Assembly (NCBI GenBank): GCA_950295325.1
Contig: OX485809.1
Coordinates: 28,580,001 to 28,644,000 of the forward strand
DNA: 64,000 bases
From: Polytrichum commune
Taxonomy: Eukaryota > Streptophyta > Polytrichopsida > Polytrichales > Polytrichaceae
Direction: 5' to 3'
The notes under the pieces are model-generated. The model ran no database searches. It was not told where the DNA came from and saw only the letters and a program-made list of their open reading frames with translations. This document shows, piece by piece, positions 26,307-54,100 of this stretch; within the stretch, counting starts at the first letter, position 1, and every line of letters starts with the position of its first letter. The translations under genes were made by a program, and so were the position numbers.

Positions 26307-28002
26307 ATGGCTGCTGTAACGGAGCGCGCGACAGTGGGAGCTGAAACAGCCCGGATGGACGGGAAGGGAGTTGTAGGGAGAGCCGCTGAAGCTGCTATGA
26401 ATGTGGCCACAGGCAGAGATGGGCCACATTACCCTTTGGACAGGACTGGTGAAACTACTGGAACTGGCGTAGATTACGATGGTCTTGGCAATAGATCAGA
26501 CTTCATTGATACTCACCATTACAACGGTGAAGGAATTATGGGCCGGACTGAGGAGGAGATGGCACGGCTACGTAATCGAACCGAAATCACCCGCGAAGGA
26601 GAACCATACGCTCCCAACCCGAACATGAGAGATTTGGTAAGTTTGCATTGAACTCTATTATCCTTCGATCCTTCAATCGATCTTTTCACCTTGACTCGGT
26701 AGATAGCGAAGCATTTTAAGAACAGCCACACATAATAACCCCATCCATTGTTATCATCACAAACTTCACGAAGATATTGCCCAGGAGTTCATATGAAAAA
26801 TCTAACTGAATTTGTAACTTATTTGCGTTTATGTCAGAATGCAGCTAATGCGGAAACGAAGTGTATATGTACATCTCGTGTCAGGTTATCCGCGGGAATG
26901 TACAGGTAGATATACGTTCACTGTGAATCTTACATGTTGCTTGCCCGGCTTGTTCTCTGTTTTGCAGCCGAAGGAGTTTGAAACTAAGGTGCAGGTTGTC
27001 CAAAGATATCCTGAAATGAAAACTGTTGAGAAAACAGACTTCGTGAAGGAAGTTCACCACGAGGAGCGTGTTGTTACTGTTCCTAAGACCAGAGTGATCA
27101 TGGAAGAGGTCGAGAGAGTGGACCGCGTACCCATGGTGAAGGAGGTGAATCAAACAAGGATGGAAACTGTTCACAGGTATTGACAAAATGGCTTGCCAGT
27201 CAGTTGATCTGAATTCAATTTAGAATAATCAGCATGATACATCACAATTCGTTATATGAGGAGGTTAATCGTCAAGTTTTCATAACGCAAGCCTTTATTG
27301 TAGTGCGTCCGATGTATAGTTCCAAGTAATCGATATGCTTAATTGATTGGCAGGGTGGTTGCGGAAGAGCGTGAAGTTACAGAGAGGGTGCCTGTCGTCG
27401 AATATGTTGAAGTGCCAAGAATGGAAGAAGTTCCTCGAGTTATCACCGAGGATGTAGAGGAAACAGTGAGAGTTCCTGTTGTCACCGAGGTGCCAGTGAC
27501 GCGCATGGTCGAGGTTCCTACCGGAAAGTAAGTAAATGTGCCCTTTAGGACATAGCATTTTTAGATAAATTTTTTAACAATTTTAAAATCGTAAGATGTA
27601 TTTTCTTTCCCGTATTCTATATGTCGTGCAATAGTTTGTTCATTATATAGTGATCTGTGCATCTGAATTTGAGTCGGAGAATTAATTTATGTTTGTGAAT
27701 TTTGCAGCTACTGCGAATCCACGGCTGATGAGTACGTCACTCCGGGCAATTTGAAGGGTCTTGATGGGCATGGGCTTCATCATGAGGGTCACCACGGTGT
27801 TGGTGCTGCCGGTGTTGCTGGTGCAGGTGCTGGTGGTCTCTTGCACAGATCGAACACTTCGTCGTCATCGTCGTCGTCAGATGATGAAGATATTGACGAT
27901 GTGAACAGGACAGGTGTAGACCATATCAATCCAGACGGTACTACATCTGTAAATCCGGCACCGAGGAAGAAGAGTTTGCTCAAGAAATTGCTTCACCATT
28001 GA
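26307..28002 (+). CDS. Val-Pro repeat protein with dehydrin-like S-segment (paralogue B)
   Basis: Four coding exons: 26307-26636, 26968-27176, 27354-27527 and 27708-28002. Introns are GT-AG in phases 0, 2 and 2; the total is 1008 nt (335 aa plus stop). Exons 2 and 3 have exactly the lengths of those in paralogue A. Residues 1-110 carry VGRAAEAAMNVATGRDGP and an acidic block ending NPNMRDL. Residues 111-237 are the charged repeat region (QRYPEMKTVEKTDFVKEV, RVPVVEYVEVP, VRVPVVTEVPVTRMVEVP), similar to alveolin/articulin repeats. Residues 239-281 are His/Gly-rich. Residues 283-299 read LHRSNT, seven Ser, then DDED, matching the dehydrin S-segment pattern. The end is KKSLLKKLLHH, a basic amphipathic stretch reminiscent of, but shorter than, a K-segment. 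The protein is hydrophilic with no membrane segment. Function is unknown; a stress-related or structural role is inferred from the motifs only. Confidence 0.87.
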
Positions 28003-32020: not shown

Positions 32021-35000
32021 CTATGTAAAGATGGTGACCACATCTCTTCGATATCCACGAACCATGAGCAATCTAGGGATGCTCTCAACCAGAAGATCAA
32101 TGTACTCCATGTAGCAAAAACTGGGATGACTTGGAGGTGGTGGTGGGAGGCTCACCAACACAACAGCTGCTGCTCTGGAGTACCGCAAGATGATTGAATT
32201 TAGCTTCAAGCATGTGTAAAGAAATTTGTTGACCTGTTGAAGTATCAATACACAACAGCCCAAGGTTACAAACTTGTCAGTGATAAGATTCAGAGCTCTT
32301 GTACAAGCATCCCAAGAACCTCAAGTTCACATGTATGATATATTACCAACTTCTTTGTTACTAATGTACTCTTGGGATCCAGTAGGAAAGGGGGGATACA
32401 GCTCCTGCAAGAAGTACAGAGGTTAAATCCTAGAGCTAAGGAAAGCCAAGAAGCCTCACTTGTAACTCATCAACCTTCTCATCTTCAGGCTGGCTGCTGC
32501 TGTTCATATTTGGCTCAAATCCAGCAACACGTTCAGCAATCCTTTTGCGGGCCTTTGAGAAGGTTTCCATAGCATCACTCCGCCCTATCTCCCCAGCAGC
32601 TAGATTATCTTCTTGATGAGCTTCCCAAGACTTCATTGTAACCACAATAACGTCAGCTTGCATTCGCAAGTCATATAGAAACTTTTTTACATCCATCTTC
32701 AACTCATCAGCCTCCGTGTCTTCCTCTGCAATGCAGAACACCTGTATAGCCAGCAAAGTGGTTCAAGAATTCAACAATTTAGTACAAGAATATACAGCTT
32801 CTTTAGTCATCCATAAAAGTGATCAAATAGCTATGCTAAAGTTTCTTAATAATCCTAGCTGTACCACAAAGGAAAAGAAAGACCAATGTGCAAATGTACC
32901 TGAATCTTACAGCTCTCAAAGCAATCTCTAGCACGGAGCAACTGAGACAACAGCAACATGAGACCACCATCTCTAACAATCCAATAGAGATCGATTGTCC
33001 CATACTGCTTCTGATATTCGCCAGGCCATTCGTCCAGACCCTTCACTATGACAACTGCTTTGTTTGATGTTGAGCAATCATTGATAATGCTAACGAAATT
33101 ATCAGGAATACCACTGTGCCTTGTGTCCCTCCATATCTCAGGGTAGCGCATACAAACAATGTTGGGTTTCAGGTTTGCAAGACCCATGGCTTGCACAATC
33201 AACCGAAATCCATCTACAACATTGTTCGCAACAATCACTTCTGCAACTCCCTCGCATTTTTTGTAATCAATATAGGTGCTAAGAAGTCGGCATGCCTGTT
33301 TAAAGATGCAAAAATAGTGTCAACCAGCAGTTTCAGTTTGCACACTTGCTTGTGAAAATAGATAGCCATCAGAGCTTTTGTACGAAGGAGTTTGTGGCAA
33401 AGACACTGCTAACTTTCACACACAAGGAACAGAAAATTGCTCCTCTCCTTAAACAGTAGATGGAACCAATATCAAAGATTCCATCATGAACATGTACAGA
33501 AGGGACGCATACAAGACCTGCCGGCTTTCCTCTGCTTTGTTCTTGTAGTCACCCTCCACAATTGAAGCAAATATAGACATACCACGTCCTTTCTTTTTCA
33601 TACAGTTTGCAAAATCTGCCAGTTTGGGGTGGCATGGTACATCATTCGGCAGTATACCCCAAGGCTTACAGAAAATGAGAGGGATGGGATACCAATTCTT
33701 GGGATGGACAGGTGTTGCTGCACCAAAACGAAGGACACAGTCAGAAGTCAATTCAATCCAGACAACCAAGGCTTTGAAATGGTTGTGAAAACCTAGTAAA
33801 TGAAAAGACTCAAGTAAAAAGATTAAAAAAAAATCAATGTCACTTGAAAAAGCAAGTACAAGCCGCTTAATTGCTTACAAATACATCAAGGCATTGATGG
33901 ATCCACAAACCTCCTAAGGAGCGAAGACTTCTCAAGGCAAGTTGGAAGTAAGCGCTCTTAAATCCGTCTCCCCAGTCACCACCTTTGCCTTTGATGCTAA
34001 CATACCAATAGAGCAGACTCGCAAGTGCTAGTGACACTATGGTAAATGACCATGATATCAGGAACATTATACCTGTCACAAGTGAACTGAGTTGCTTCCT
34101 TTAGTGGCTTTAGACAACTTAGAGGAGGTTCATCTTCTATTGATGACCTCGGGTTTGATATCAAGGACATTGTCAGATGTTTCTCAGAAATATCAAGTAG
34201 GGCCTAACTTCCCTAATGAAGAAATGCAGCAGTTAGGACTTGTAAGGCTATAAAATAGAGATGATCACAAAGTAAGAATGTCAGGAAAGCTTTGAGGTAA
34301 TCACAAATATATCTCCTAAAAACCACCAACAAATATGAAACAAAAAAAGGGTCCTCCCCGAGACACTTTGGAAGCAGACCATGCAGGATAGGGAAAGACA
34401 TAGAAACTTACTGATGCATAGGAGAGCACCAACAAGAGAAAAACTCCAATGATGAAATTTGAATCGAGGCCGCCAACTGGGTGCATCAAGCAGGTCGAGA
34501 AGAAGACAAGATAGATTCACACCTCCATAACAGAGAAGGAAGAACATGGTTATGACAGGAGTGATGAGATCTAAATTTCCCAGAATTACACAGCTCGCGC
34601 AGATTAGCATGGTGAATAGTGTTGCAAAATGAGGCTCCGCATCATCAGGTGCCTTGAAGTACTTCAACACAGGTATGATGTCATCATTGGCGATTGCCGC
34701 AAGAAGACGAGGAGCCCCTGTCAGGCTCTGAAGAGCTGCTCCAAGAGTGGAAAGAATAACTCCGACTTGGACCACCCACGGCACTGGCCATGCAATTGTT
34801 GCTGTCAATAACCTAAAAGCACAAACAAGGTACAACTTCAAAATCCTAGACAGGCCGTGCTGCACATCACAAAGTAGAGAGGGGTGGCTTAAAACCAAGG
34901 CTAACCCAGACCCCATGGGAACTCTAAGATTGAGTCACATACGCCTAGAATAGTGCCAGGATGCATGACCTTCCTAGCACTTGATATATTGGTGCACTTA

Positions 35001-42158: not shown

Positions 42159-43946
42159 TCATTTAGGCAGTTCATCCTCTGTGTTCCTACAAAAACCAAC
42201 CCATTGTTGTGAGGTGAGTTGGGCATTTTGTTGGTTGAACATCATTTCATGGAAAAATCCGTAGAATTCCGTAAGTTTAAGCCAAAAGTCATAGTGAACT
42301 TCTTCTAAGGAGAATTTATCTTTAGCATCCTCCCAATTCAAGAAATCGTATCTCCCTGGGTCCCAAATATCCCTAAAGTACCTTAACCCATTCATGTTCA
42401 ATGTGTATGCCTTGATCATGATAATGCTCAAGTGAAGTCTTTGGTATTCCTCCCTCCACCAAAGATTGAGTTGTAAAATATCTTCGGGAATTGTTGGAGA
42501 AATGTATGTGACCATTTTCGCCATTACCTTCCACGATTGATTAATGTGGTGCCAAACTTTGGATCTACCTTTTGTAGAAAATTGTGGGGAGTACAACCAT
42601 AAAGAAGAGGAGGGACCCCATGGACCGTGGGGCGAAGGTTGTAACTCCGTGATGCGATACCTCAAGATAATTTGAAAGTTTGATTTGTCAGGTCCTAAGG
42701 CTTGGATAACCCATTTACTCATGAGGGCTTTCATAGCGTCTTCTAGCGAGGTAAGACTAAGATCTCTTACTTTCTTAGGCATTATGCAATCATCCCAATT
42801 AACATGTGCTTTAGCCGTATTTTTCGATCCATACCAAAGGTAGTTGCGGAGTAGAGTTTTAATCCTCTTCAGAATTTTCTTTGACCCAACCCATACCACA
42901 TTAAAGTACCATAGGGATGACATCAAAAATTGGTTAACGATGAGGGTACACCCCGCAAATGACATGGTCGTGGAGCCCCAATATTTGAGTTTGCCCTTGA
43001 CCCTATTCATCATAAATTGGTCTACATTTTGTAGTTCTAGCTTAAGACCGAATGGCATGCCTAGATGTTTTGATAGGTCCCCAGTAGTTGCCCATTTTCA
43101 TTGGTATTTTTCCACCCATCTTGCGGACGTCCTCGATCGCACCAATACATCATGTTTTTATGCCAATTTATCCCAAGTCCCAAAGCATTACCAAACTTGT
43201 GAAGGATCCCAACAAGGTGGTCCACGTTGGTTACTTCTGCCTTGACAGTGAAGGATGTGTCATCAACGTACTAGCTAATAATTTGTTGAAAGTTATCTTG
43301 TAGAAGGGTAATGCCTTTGAGGTTACCTACTACCATTGCATGTTTAATTGTTGCATTTAATGCCTCCGCCGTGATAATGAACAAATAGGGTGCAAGAGGG
43401 CAACCCTGACAAACTCCTCTATGCAATTCGAAAGGCATAATTGTTTGGTTGTTGATATTGACACAGACCATTGCGTCATGAAATAGAATTCTAATCATGT
43501 GAATAAATGTGCTTGGCATTCCTAGTTTCTCCATTACTTGGAACGTAAAGGCTCAGTCAACTTTATCATAGGCTTTGCTAAAGTCAAGTTTGAAGAAAAT
43601 AGACTCTTGACGTGACTCCTTTGGCCATTGAATTGATTCGTGTGTGAATGTTGTCTAGAATGAATCTAAGTGGTAGAAAGACAATTTGATCACTATCGAT
43701 TAACTTTATTAGTAGTGGTTGGAGTCGTCGTTGTAGGGCTTTGGCGAAGATTTTATAAGTAGTGTTGAGGAGTGTGACTGGTCGCCAATTGGTTAACCTC
43801 GAGCGGTCCCCTTCTTTGAATAGCAGTGCAATTTGTCCTCTTGTTATCCCGTTTGGAAATCGGCCCCTCACTAATGACTCGTTGACCATCCTTGTGAAAT
43901 CGTCACTCATGAAGCTCCAGTAAGATTGAAAAAATTCCACCGTCAC
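42159..43946 (-). pseudogene. LINE reverse transcriptase remnant
   Basis: The fingers region at about 43946-43584 carries ALLFKEGDRSRLTNWRPVTL and IFAKALQRRL. The palm at 43534-43271 carries GVCQGCPLAPYLF. The catalytic YVDD follows in the same frame near 43255 but is preceded two codons earlier by a TAG stop. The thumb/connection region is a 299-codon frame at 43058-42159 (KLKYWGSTTMSFAGCTLIVN, SLWYFNVVW, LRNYLWYG). At least two frame breaks separate these parts. The protein is not functional. Confidence 0.88.
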
Positions 43947-44475
43947 CCATATGGGCCTAGGCTTTTACCTTTTGCAAGGGCATGGACCGCTTTGGTTAAT
44001 TCTTCTTTGGTTAGTGGGGCTTCCAACATCCTCTGGACGGTTGGTGAGAATTTGTTTGGTATGTAGCTTAACAACTCTTTCACATGCTCATGTCGTTGTT
44101 CATTATGGATTGGACATGCATACAATTTAGAATAGAAAGAATTACACACTTTGGCTAGGTCTGCACTTGATGAGACAATTGTATTGTTTTCATCATACAA
44201 TTCCGTGATCAATCCTCCCCCAGTCTCTCCCTTACTAAGGAGAAGAATTGTTTATTCATTCTATCCCTAGACTCCATCCATCGGGTTCGAGGCCTAATTA
44301 TACGCCCTTCCTCTTTCTTATCTGCTAAGCTTTGTAATTTATCCCTAAGTATCTTAATCATGGCCTTAGCTATTCCATTTGTTATGTCAGAGTGTAGGAT
44401 AACTTGCCAAAACTCCAAACCTACTTTTTGTTGCTTTAGTTAGGCAAAAGTATTTGTAGTACTTGAGTACTTTCC

Positions 44476-51117: not shown

Positions 51118-54100
51118 TCATTGGTAAAATGAGAAAGTAGATGCCTCGGTAATAAGTTCTCGTAGTCCACCTATGGAAGATACAAGCATGAGCAAAACTC
51201 CCAAGACAATGATGATCTACAAAATCCACCACATAGTTAGAACCGATTTGATGGAAGTCCATATCTTCGATGACATTGAACTTAATACAACTTGGTTCAA
51301 GAAATTTAAGTCAAACGTTCTGAATAATTAAGTACGACTATTACAAATGTGACATTGCCTAGTGAGAATGACAATCATCAATCACATATATGCTCATATG
51401 TTCCATGTATACTACAACAACTTTAAATGACATTTTTGATCACAACCTTGACTTGTGTAAAGGAAACACCAAGGCAAACTCAATGTATCATGAAGTCAAG
51501 GAGGTGAGGTGTCAGTAAAAGCAAATTACCCAATTCAGTATCCATGTGATGCTAAATGGCTTGGGCTTGTAGATACACAACCAAATTATGCATGGTAGCT
51601 GTGTCACCCCACAAAAAGATCACTAGATGGCATCAACACTCAAATAAAAAGAGTTATTTTAAAAAAAAATTAATTAAGTAGGCTAAAATTGAATTTCATT
51701 CAAAGAAATAAACAATGAGAGTCAACTTTCATGTGATAAATTGTCATGTTGTATCACTTGATGTAGAATTAAATGCTCAATTAAGGTCTAGGAACTTGTT
51801 GAAACCATAAGTTGTAAGTTGAGTAGATGGAATGGATCTTACAAAATAGGTTGTTGGAGCGAAAGCAAATCCTCCAAAAAATCCAAGTAATGCCGAAAAA
51901 AACGGGAATGTCATGGCAAGAAACATAGTGAAGGCTGGAAACACATCATCTATTATGTTAGCATACGTAACAAACTATGTGTCCTTATTGAGTTTTTATG
52001 ACAAATCATGTTTCCTAGATACAATATGCAACAATTGATTGAAAAAAATGTAAACCATACTCCAATCAAATATGTTGAATTACACATACCTACATAGGTA
52101 GAACGAGTTACTATACGAAGCAAAAGCGAAGGTCGTAAGCCAATCCTTTTTACCAATATACCCTCCACCAAATCAAACACAGGCATTGCATAGATCTGAA
52201 ACAAACAAATGCAAAGTATGTCACTTATGAGACTTGCGTTGACGTGATATATTATAGGTGAAAACTGATTCAAACCATCACACATTGGGACCTAGAGATG
52301 CATAAATTCATAGCGTATAGGGATTTTATTATTATTTTAAGAACGAGTAAACAATTTCTTACCTGGTAACTTCCAATGACGTGAATGACAACCATGAGAT
52401 TGGCCATCGCCACAACCCATCTTGGTTTTGCTACAAATGTAATAATGTTATCAGTAACTTGATTCCCATATGCCCAATATCCCACAAGTGCAACCGGAAA
52501 ATAACAGAGCGCAACAATAATGTATGCCAAAACACATCCCCGCCACATTGGTATTTTTGAAGGTCGTTCTAGTGTCGAAGGAATCGATGCTTGAATTTCC
52601 AGCACTACATTGTGTCCTGCATATGCAAATGCAACCGATCCAAGGGCATTGAATGCCCCAAAAACCAAATTAGCTGTTGATGTGTCACGGAGGTGGTAAT
52701 CTACGGGAGTAAACGTAAGTGGAGGAATACTGTGACCATATGCTGCAGGAATTGCCCATGCAATTGTCGAATAACTGCACATAAACAACACATACCTTTA
52801 TCAATACATCCCAAAACACATCATAATATCCCACACTTTCTTCCACCTTCAGTTCTTGAGTGCCAACACAAACAAAAGTCCTCTCATTAACATTATAAAA
52901 GTACAAGCTTCACATTCGATAATGTTGTCACCGTTCTACATTCAGTCAAGTTCATTTCAAACACCCTCAATAAATTGGGAACCAACTGGAATATTTTTAA
53001 GTCTATTCATATTCATTTACAATACATTGAGTCCTTGATTTAGTCTAGCCTACACTAGTTCTCCCACATTGACTTTGCCCAATGAAGACATACTATGGAG
53101 AGAAAGCCCATTCTCCTATTCACGCATAGTGTGTATAATTTTTTCCACTTGCACAAAGGTAGAGGGTGCTAAAACCAACACCCCACCCAAAACCAACACC
53201 ATGAAATCTTGCACAATAAGTACATATTATGAGAATGTTCACCATGTGAACGTCATGTCCCTCCCCCCCCCCCCCCAAATGATTTTGGGCAACTACACTT
53301 CAAATATTTGTATTTATTCAAAAACTTGGGGGAGAGGGGGGGGGGGCTTGCAATACGTTTGGCCAATGTTGAATGAACTATTATCTAAATTTTGAGTTAG
53401 CATTGAATTGATATTAAACCCTAAAAGGTATTTACCAACACTGACTCAACATCAAGCATCAATCACTTGCATTTTGAGATGTAAAGTATCCAAAACTACA
53501 TGGAATGGCAAACCTTAGAGACATGTATGAAGCAATGTGTTAAGTTTTGGGCAAACCTTAGGGACATGCAAGCAGCGGCTAAGGACACTCCTGCAATGGA
53601 ATTGAAATTGGGGAGTTGCGATAGAAGGAAGTGCACTGACGCAAAGACAGCAATCCACACGGTCGTGTGGCCATCCAAGTGGCAACTTTTGCCACAATAA
53701 AGGCTGTAGATCTTCATGAGGGAGTTTCCGCCAGTGACCATGTACAAAATGTCGACACCCACTTGCACAATAAGTTGTTGCGGAACCACGATCCATAGCC
53801 CCAATCTCTCCCCAAATGCTTCTTGTCCAAGCTCATGGTAGCGATCTAGCCGCTTCCCAGGAACCATCTCATGCATCTCCACCATTTGCCACAAAGTGTA
53901 GAGCGTGATCACCCACGAGAGCACTAGCACTACCACACCCGGACCCCTACATCACAAAACTTGTCATGTTGTATGTTATAAACGAATTTGGGTTTGTGCC
54001 ATCTAAATCCCATTGTATCCATGCATATCAATAAATACACATGCCATCCCTACATTGTCTACCCAACACCCGGGGGTGGCAACTCCACCATAGCATGCAG

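Follow-up and report, generated by a model that had tools for sequence, protein, structure and literature searches.

A moss gene family with an epiplastin-like core and a dehydrin-type tail, tentatively read as a tail-tethered beta-ribbon scaffold

The question raised by this locus is whether a moss gene can join, within one protein, a charged Val-Pro repeat resembling those of alveolins and articulins to the Ser-rich tail of a dehydrin, and what kind of protein such a combination would make. Epiplastins, the class that comprises alveolins, articulins and epiplasmins, are described as building blocks of the protist membrane skeleton (PMC6212826; like the other papers cited here, this source was available in part, and what is quoted is limited to that part). 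The window, by which is meant the whole 64-kb stretch of DNA analysed, is C7:28580001-28644000 of a source assembly of 407.8 Mb in 64 contigs. Within it, gene A occupies positions 26307-28002 of the forward strand, where four exons separated by GT-AG introns join in frame to encode 335 amino acids, and its parts are the following.

26307-26636, forward strand: exon 1, an A/G-rich head terminating in ...RTEEEMARLRNRTEITREGEPYAPNPNMRDL, alignable in the paralogues B, C and D
26968-27176, forward strand: exon 2 (209 nt), first half of the core repeat
27354-27527, forward strand: exon 3 (174 nt), second half of the core repeat, modelled by AlphaFold2 as a long beta hairpin
26968-27519, forward strand: core (residues 111-235, containing the intron 27177-27353), of epiplastin-like composition and with a 28-residue repeat
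27708-28002, forward strand: exon 4, with a Cys-containing joint, a His/Gly linker, the S-segment and the basic C-terminus
27841-27891, forward strand: dehydrin-type S-segment, LHRSNTSSSSSSSDDED, within a sub-threshold Pfam Dehydrin match
27964-28002, forward strand: truncated K-segment-like C-terminus, RKKSLLKKLLHH plus stop

The observation on which the original prediction was built is confirmed. Both Val-Pro phrases that it had reported, VPVVEYVEVP and VPVTRMVEVP, are found in the 125-residue core, the His/Gly-rich linker that it had described lies in exon 4, and the basic end that it had announced directly precedes the stop codon. Of the S-segment, it had read LHRS, the seven Ser and DDED correctly and had missed the NT between LHRS and the Ser run. 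The N-terminus, as judged by eye, is without a signal-like hydrophobic stretch, which suggests a cytosolic protein. Elsewhere in the window, the reverse strand carries exons of a cation-chloride cotransporter-like gene (32858-34934; with matches to SLC12 and amino acid permease), exons encoding a transmembrane amino acid transporter (52273-53951; Aa_trans) and a reverse transcriptase-like fragment (43587-43964; RVT_1, 28.5 bits, slightly below the cut-off).

By searching the source genome with the gene A protein, it was found that the core is present in at least six genes, named A to F with gene A counted, and that one of the others lies in the same window. The gene models, built by hand, have four exons each.

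8353-8000, 7741-7533, 7386-7213 and 6863-6596, reverse strand: gene B, second member in the window, 334 amino acids
6734-6775, reverse strand: S-segment pattern match of gene B

Gene B is about 18 kb from gene A on the opposite strand, gene C is on C7 at 37.27 Mb, gene D on C4 at 29.24 Mb, and genes E and F lie near each other on C5 at 8.98 Mb. Exon 3 measures 174 nt in all six members, and exon 2 measures 209 nt in five of them and 212 nt in F. Identity to gene A is 66, 66, 61, 35 and 41% over the whole protein for B, C, D, E and F, respectively, and 80, 78, 73, 44 and 48% over the core. The complete architecture, with A/G-rich head, Val/Glu-rich core, S-segment and short basic C-terminus, is common to four of the six genes (A-D). 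Genes E and F, two loci at C5 8.982-8.990 Mb, are divergent and Cys-rich and have different tails, that of F being a long His/Lys/Pro-rich repeat in its C-terminal region. Cysteines stand on both sides of the core in B, C, D, E and F, and the upstream one is lost in A.

Nei-Gojobori estimates over the six pairs among A-D, with E and F left out, gave core dN values of 0.036-0.174 and core dS values of 1.44-1.81 in three pairs, dS being saturated in the other three; for the heads and tails of the same four genes, dN was 0.20-0.37 and 0.23-0.38, respectively. The core is under strong purifying selection in A-D, the duplicates of the family are old, and the core is their most constrained portion. 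The lowest core dN belongs to the pair B-C, and the window neighbours A and B are not mutual closest relatives. The union of repeat and S-segment tail that had been predicted from a single gene is therefore real, as it recurs in a conserved family with a Val-Pro-rich core and a dehydrin-type S-segment.

As to what the core resembles, the published profile of epiplastin domains has V+I of 33+/-7%, charged residues of 35+/-6%, G and A almost excluded and S and T low, together with a beta-strand prediction and an A/G-rich head and tail (PMC6212826). The cores of A-D lie inside all four limits of an epiplastin-like medial domain (V+I, charge, G/A and A/G-rich flanks), with V+I of 29.6-33.6%, charged residues of 36.8-38.4%, G 0, A 0-0.8%, S 0, L 0-0.8% and A+G of 14.8-32.5% in the flanks. 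The V+I of F (27.0%) is inside the limit and that of E (25.6%) just outside. Net charge is -5 to -8 in the A-D cores and -1 to -8 across the six. When a composition filter (V+I 26-47%, charge 29-47%, A+G <4%) was run over the 1529 stop-free stretches of 60 amino acids in the 64 kb, taken at a step of 5, seven passed, and all seven are in genes A and B. The same cores depart from the profile in Thr (6.4-9.6% vs 3+/-2%), and in Arg (10.4-12.0% vs 7+/-3%), which exceeds Lys whereas the profile favours Lys; gene A also falls short in Ile (1.6% vs 9+/-4%). The articulin subclass is defined by more than three VPV in the medial domain (PMC6212826), a count reached by two of the six genes, since B and C have four VPV phrases each, A and D three, and E and F one.

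The repeat itself was examined by a fixed-lag self-comparison. A 28-residue period was found in A-D with z values of 5.8-7.3, none of 2000 shuffles being as high in each gene; it falls short of significance in E and F, where 243 and 99 of 2000 shuffles, respectively, were as high. The unit reads VPVV..V...R.E.V.RV..EE.E...., and units 1 and 2 match at 12-15 of 28 residues in A-D, where a lag of 6 also gives z values of 2.8-3.8. At a lag of 12, the tandem period quoted for alveolins (PMC4303705), this method, simpler than HHrepID, gave z values of 1.1-1.5 in A-D and 0.0-0.2 in E and F.

Structure prediction was carried out with AlphaFold2 on exons 2 and 3 of gene A separately, each with a two-sequence alignment, that for exon 3 consisting of genes A and B. 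Exon 3 alone was modelled with a mean pLDDT of 82.3 and a pTM of 0.46 as two 19-residue strands (2-20 and 36-54), joined by a less confidently modelled loop and without any helix; exon 2 alone gave a low-confidence model (pLDDT 45.5) with two strands and a short helix. The hydrophobic moment of the core at the beta angles of 160-180 degrees did not exceed that of shuffles (z -2.3 to -0.1), and at the alpha angle of 100 degrees it was slight (z 0.4-1.4); the beta reading rests on AlphaFold2, this simple test giving it no support. When the exon 3 model was compared with solved structures by Foldseek, 158 matches were returned at E<=10 and none at E<=0.001, with probabilities of at most 0.28 among the 50 of these matches listed; by sequence, solved structures yielded nothing convincing (best E 0.21 and 0.36). 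In AlphaFold models, malaria alveolin domains adopt a twisted beta-ribbon together with a specific partner, and the lone domains are predicted to be disordered, one tested homodimer being unsupported (PMC12465100), whereas exon 3 of gene A is predicted to be ordered alone.

The tail brings a different set of signatures. The dehydrin S-segment has the consensus LHRSGS4-10(E/D)3 (PMC8100072; also quoted in PMC5393156), and the segments LHRSNTS7DDED of A, LHRSKS8D of B, LHRTKS10DD of C and FNRSKS8D of D fit it, save for the N or K after the first Ser. Among 195,372 six-frame residues of DNA from the same genome, namely the 64-kb window plus loci L009-L020, the S-segment pattern occurred four times, once in each of A-D. 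Next to the stop codon, these four genes end in a KKxLLxR[IL]-type motif, and their C-termini RKKSLLKKLLHH, RKPGLLSRIIHH, KKKSLLQRIIHH and KRKSLLQRIIHH hold only the first half of the K-segment. A dehydrin is defined by at least one K-segment, EKKGIMDKIKEKLPG (PMC4215689); the complete form is absent in A-D, and since its second half, KEKLPG, is missing, they are not dehydrins by that definition, as given in the available part of the source. Neither of these tail features, S-segment pattern or half-K end, occurs in genes E and F. In the same set of DNA, the half-K pattern also matches at the C-terminal ends of L016, L017 and L020, dehydrin-like loci that themselves score below the Pfam Dehydrin cut-off, and nowhere else. 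Because both patterns were written after the sequences had been seen, they are descriptions and not a blind test. The helical moment of the tail was not above shuffles, and this test is uninformative, as three K-segments of the same genome were not above shuffles either.

Dehydrin-like sequences of several kinds are found in the source genome, and their K-segments are in keeping with a land plant. Complete K-segments occur at loci L013, L014 and L015. At L016, L017 and L020, a single K-segment stands at the stop codon or close to it, its LPG end being altered or absent. An open reading frame at L019 (C4, 12.33 Mb) has two K-like segments and a nine-Ser run without acidic residues after it.

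The preferred reading, which is held tentatively, is that of a small plant family with epiplastin-like physics and a dehydrin-type tail, whose products would act as a tail-tethered beta-ribbon scaffold. By analogy with the modelled malaria alveolins, the beta-ribbon core would pair with itself or with paralogues and so build a ribbon or filament scaffold. In dehydrins, the Ser run of the S-segment is phosphorylated by CK2. The Ser run of the moss tail may be phosphorylated as well, with CK2 as the candidate kinase, and together with the basic KKxLLxRIIHH-type end it could hold the scaffold at membranes or in the nucleus, or let it go, probably in response to water stress.

The chief alternative is a divergent dehydrin or LEA-type protectant that forms no filaments, in which an extended, mostly disordered core would shield membranes or proteins during drying and the SK-type tail would do the work. 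Besides the S-segment of A-D and the order of the C-terminal motifs, S first and K-like after it, this explanation draws on the Pfam Dehydrin profile (PF00257), which scores 26.8 bits in B (E 8.5e-6), 18.7 bits in A (E 0.0026, covering residues 233-297) and 12.6 bits in D (E 0.2), and on the existence of dehydrin-like proteins with truncated or absent K-segments (PMC5393156, PMC4251312). Against it, three of the six members match that profile at E<=1, with C and E without a listing at that level, and every family member is below the cut-off of 30.6 bits; with the lack of a complete K-segment, this leaves the S-segment as the genuine part of the dehydrin reading first proposed for gene A. The core also speaks against a protectant, for it is V/I-rich (30-34%) where dehydrins are hydrophilic and Gly-rich, it is the most constrained portion of the protein (dN 0.04-0.17 vs the higher values of head and tail), and its exon 3 is modelled with fair confidence as ordered beta structure. 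A protectant of this kind is considered somewhat unlikely.

With regard to a role in stress, the 1 kb upstream of A and of B contains neither ACGTGKC nor RCCGAC, and ACGTG occurs there once in A and twice in B, compared with 0.97 per kb in the window. The lack of ABRE/DRE enrichment upstream of the two genes mildly disfavours such a role. The same lack of stress elements, together with the predicted ribbon-type core, is in line with another explanation, according to which the family would serve a structural role in a specialised moss cell, for instance in the flagellated sperm cortex or the spore wall, with a regulatory Ser tail and no dependence on drought. The S-segment and the half-K end, both of them dehydrin signatures, argue against it, and it is considered improbable.

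A third explanation is that the core is a true alveolin or articulin homologue, inherited or transferred from protists, as its composition, its VPV phrases and its predicted long beta strands might suggest. The original prediction had proposed a profile search against these families as a check, and its outcome was negative. The IMCp profile, PF12314, has no match to the gene A protein at E<=10, none across the source genome (a search that weak matches could escape), and one among the six cores at E 8.2. As a positive control, nine PF12314-positive proteins (IMCp E<=0.01) were collected from 9 of 75 genomes of the genus Caulobacter, and their domains were cut out by a simple ad hoc scoring rule; a narrower IMCp search of four named Caulobacter genomes found none. 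Most of these nine proteins have a G/A/S-rich C-terminal tail. Their domains are similar to the moss cores in V+I and charge, with a net charge of +5 to +10, and show lag-12 z values of 1.7-5.1; their best lags differ, the five best being even in all nine. Since repeat lags are mixed in these proteins, the lack of a 12-residue period does not by itself exclude an articulin-type design.

The Caulobacter HMM was scored against the six cores, and 26-131 of 200 shuffles were as high with composition correction (11-94 without); in the reverse direction, where the moss cores supplied the profile and the Caulobacter domains the targets, the counts were 36-150 of 200 with correction and 5-93 without. 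The lowest uncorrected counts, 5, 6 and 8 of 200, hint weakly that some residue order is shared, and it is in such uncorrected comparisons that some scores reach the top 3-10% of their own shuffles, a point in favour of homology. By hhalign, cores and Caulobacter domains aligned with a probability of 0.09 and a score of 10.2, compared with a mean of 11.1 and a maximum of 18.6 for 60 column shuffles. Other searches for relatives were equally empty: scanning with the core profile gave 46 pattern matches in viral contigs and 34 in prokaryotic genomes, none of them confirmed, and there was no match at E<=10 to plasmids by tblastn with the core of one paralogue, and NCBIfam gave none at that level either.

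Given these shuffle controls, articulin homology is assigned low odds, and with the missing IMCp match and a period of 28 rather than 12, a true protist homologue is very improbable. Distant descent from alveolins or articulins is likewise judged unlikely, on a sequence comparison that covered bacterial (Caulobacter) articulin-like proteins and not protist ones. Because the repeat has 28 residues, PF12314 does not match and the Caulobacter similarity is about that of shuffled sequence, the core is epiplastin-like in physical character only, without demonstrated common descent, and what it has in common with alveolins is its composition and its predicted strands. The alveolin/articulin part of the original prediction is thus borne out for composition and for the predicted strands of exon 3 and fails for family membership, and its own caution that the similarity could be convergent low complexity agrees with the same results. 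That the gene is chance low-complexity sequence or a mis-joining of exons, as its biased composition might suggest, is hardly credible and is refuted by the exon plan shared by six members and by the strong purifying selection among A-D.

If the tail-tethered scaffold is true, a plant family with an epiplastin-like core and a dehydrin tail would represent an independent origin of a membrane-skeleton design. In its boldest form, which is fairly improbable, the proposal is that a land plant evolved, independently of protist alveolins, an epiplastin-like membrane skeleton in which paralogous beta-ribbon proteins pair, and which an S/half-K tail would deploy on drying membranes, offering mechanical and not purely chaperone-type protection. 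A question that can be tested in mosses follows, namely whether dehydrin-type tails can bring a structural scaffold to membranes in drying. Such proteins escape the dehydrin and alveolin profiles alike when curated cut-offs are applied. In the literature searched, which included few subscription papers and preprints, no report of an alveolin or articulin with Physcomitrium and no combination of the alveolin class with a dehydrin were found, and the reports on epiplastins among those listed appear to concern protists or algae rather than land plants. The published IMCp search recovered no red or green algal candidates, and land plants are not among the groups named in the available part of that source (PMC6212826).

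Three known systems may be set beside the moss family. Physcomitrium PpDHNA and PpDHNC are, like its members, moss proteins with repeated segments, and are stress proteins; compared by description, PpDHNA has an amphipathic helix as its D-segment and not a VP repeat, and no ribbon-type core is described in the available parts of the sources (PMC5526925, PMC8100072). SK-type dehydrins (PF00257) share with the family an S-segment made of LHRS, a Ser run and acids, followed by a basic KKxLLxR[IL]-type C-terminal motif, whereas the moss proteins lack the KEKLPG half, have a long V/I-rich core and score below the Pfam cut-off. Unlike epiplastins (PMC6212826), the family has a 28-residue repeat, more Arg than Lys, higher Thr and a dehydrin tail, with IMCp unmatched and bacterial articulin-like proteins about as similar as shuffled sequence; like them, it shows a medial domain of V/I and charged residues from which G and A are nearly absent, an A/G-rich head and tail, VP/VPV phrases and, as predicted for exon 3, long strands.
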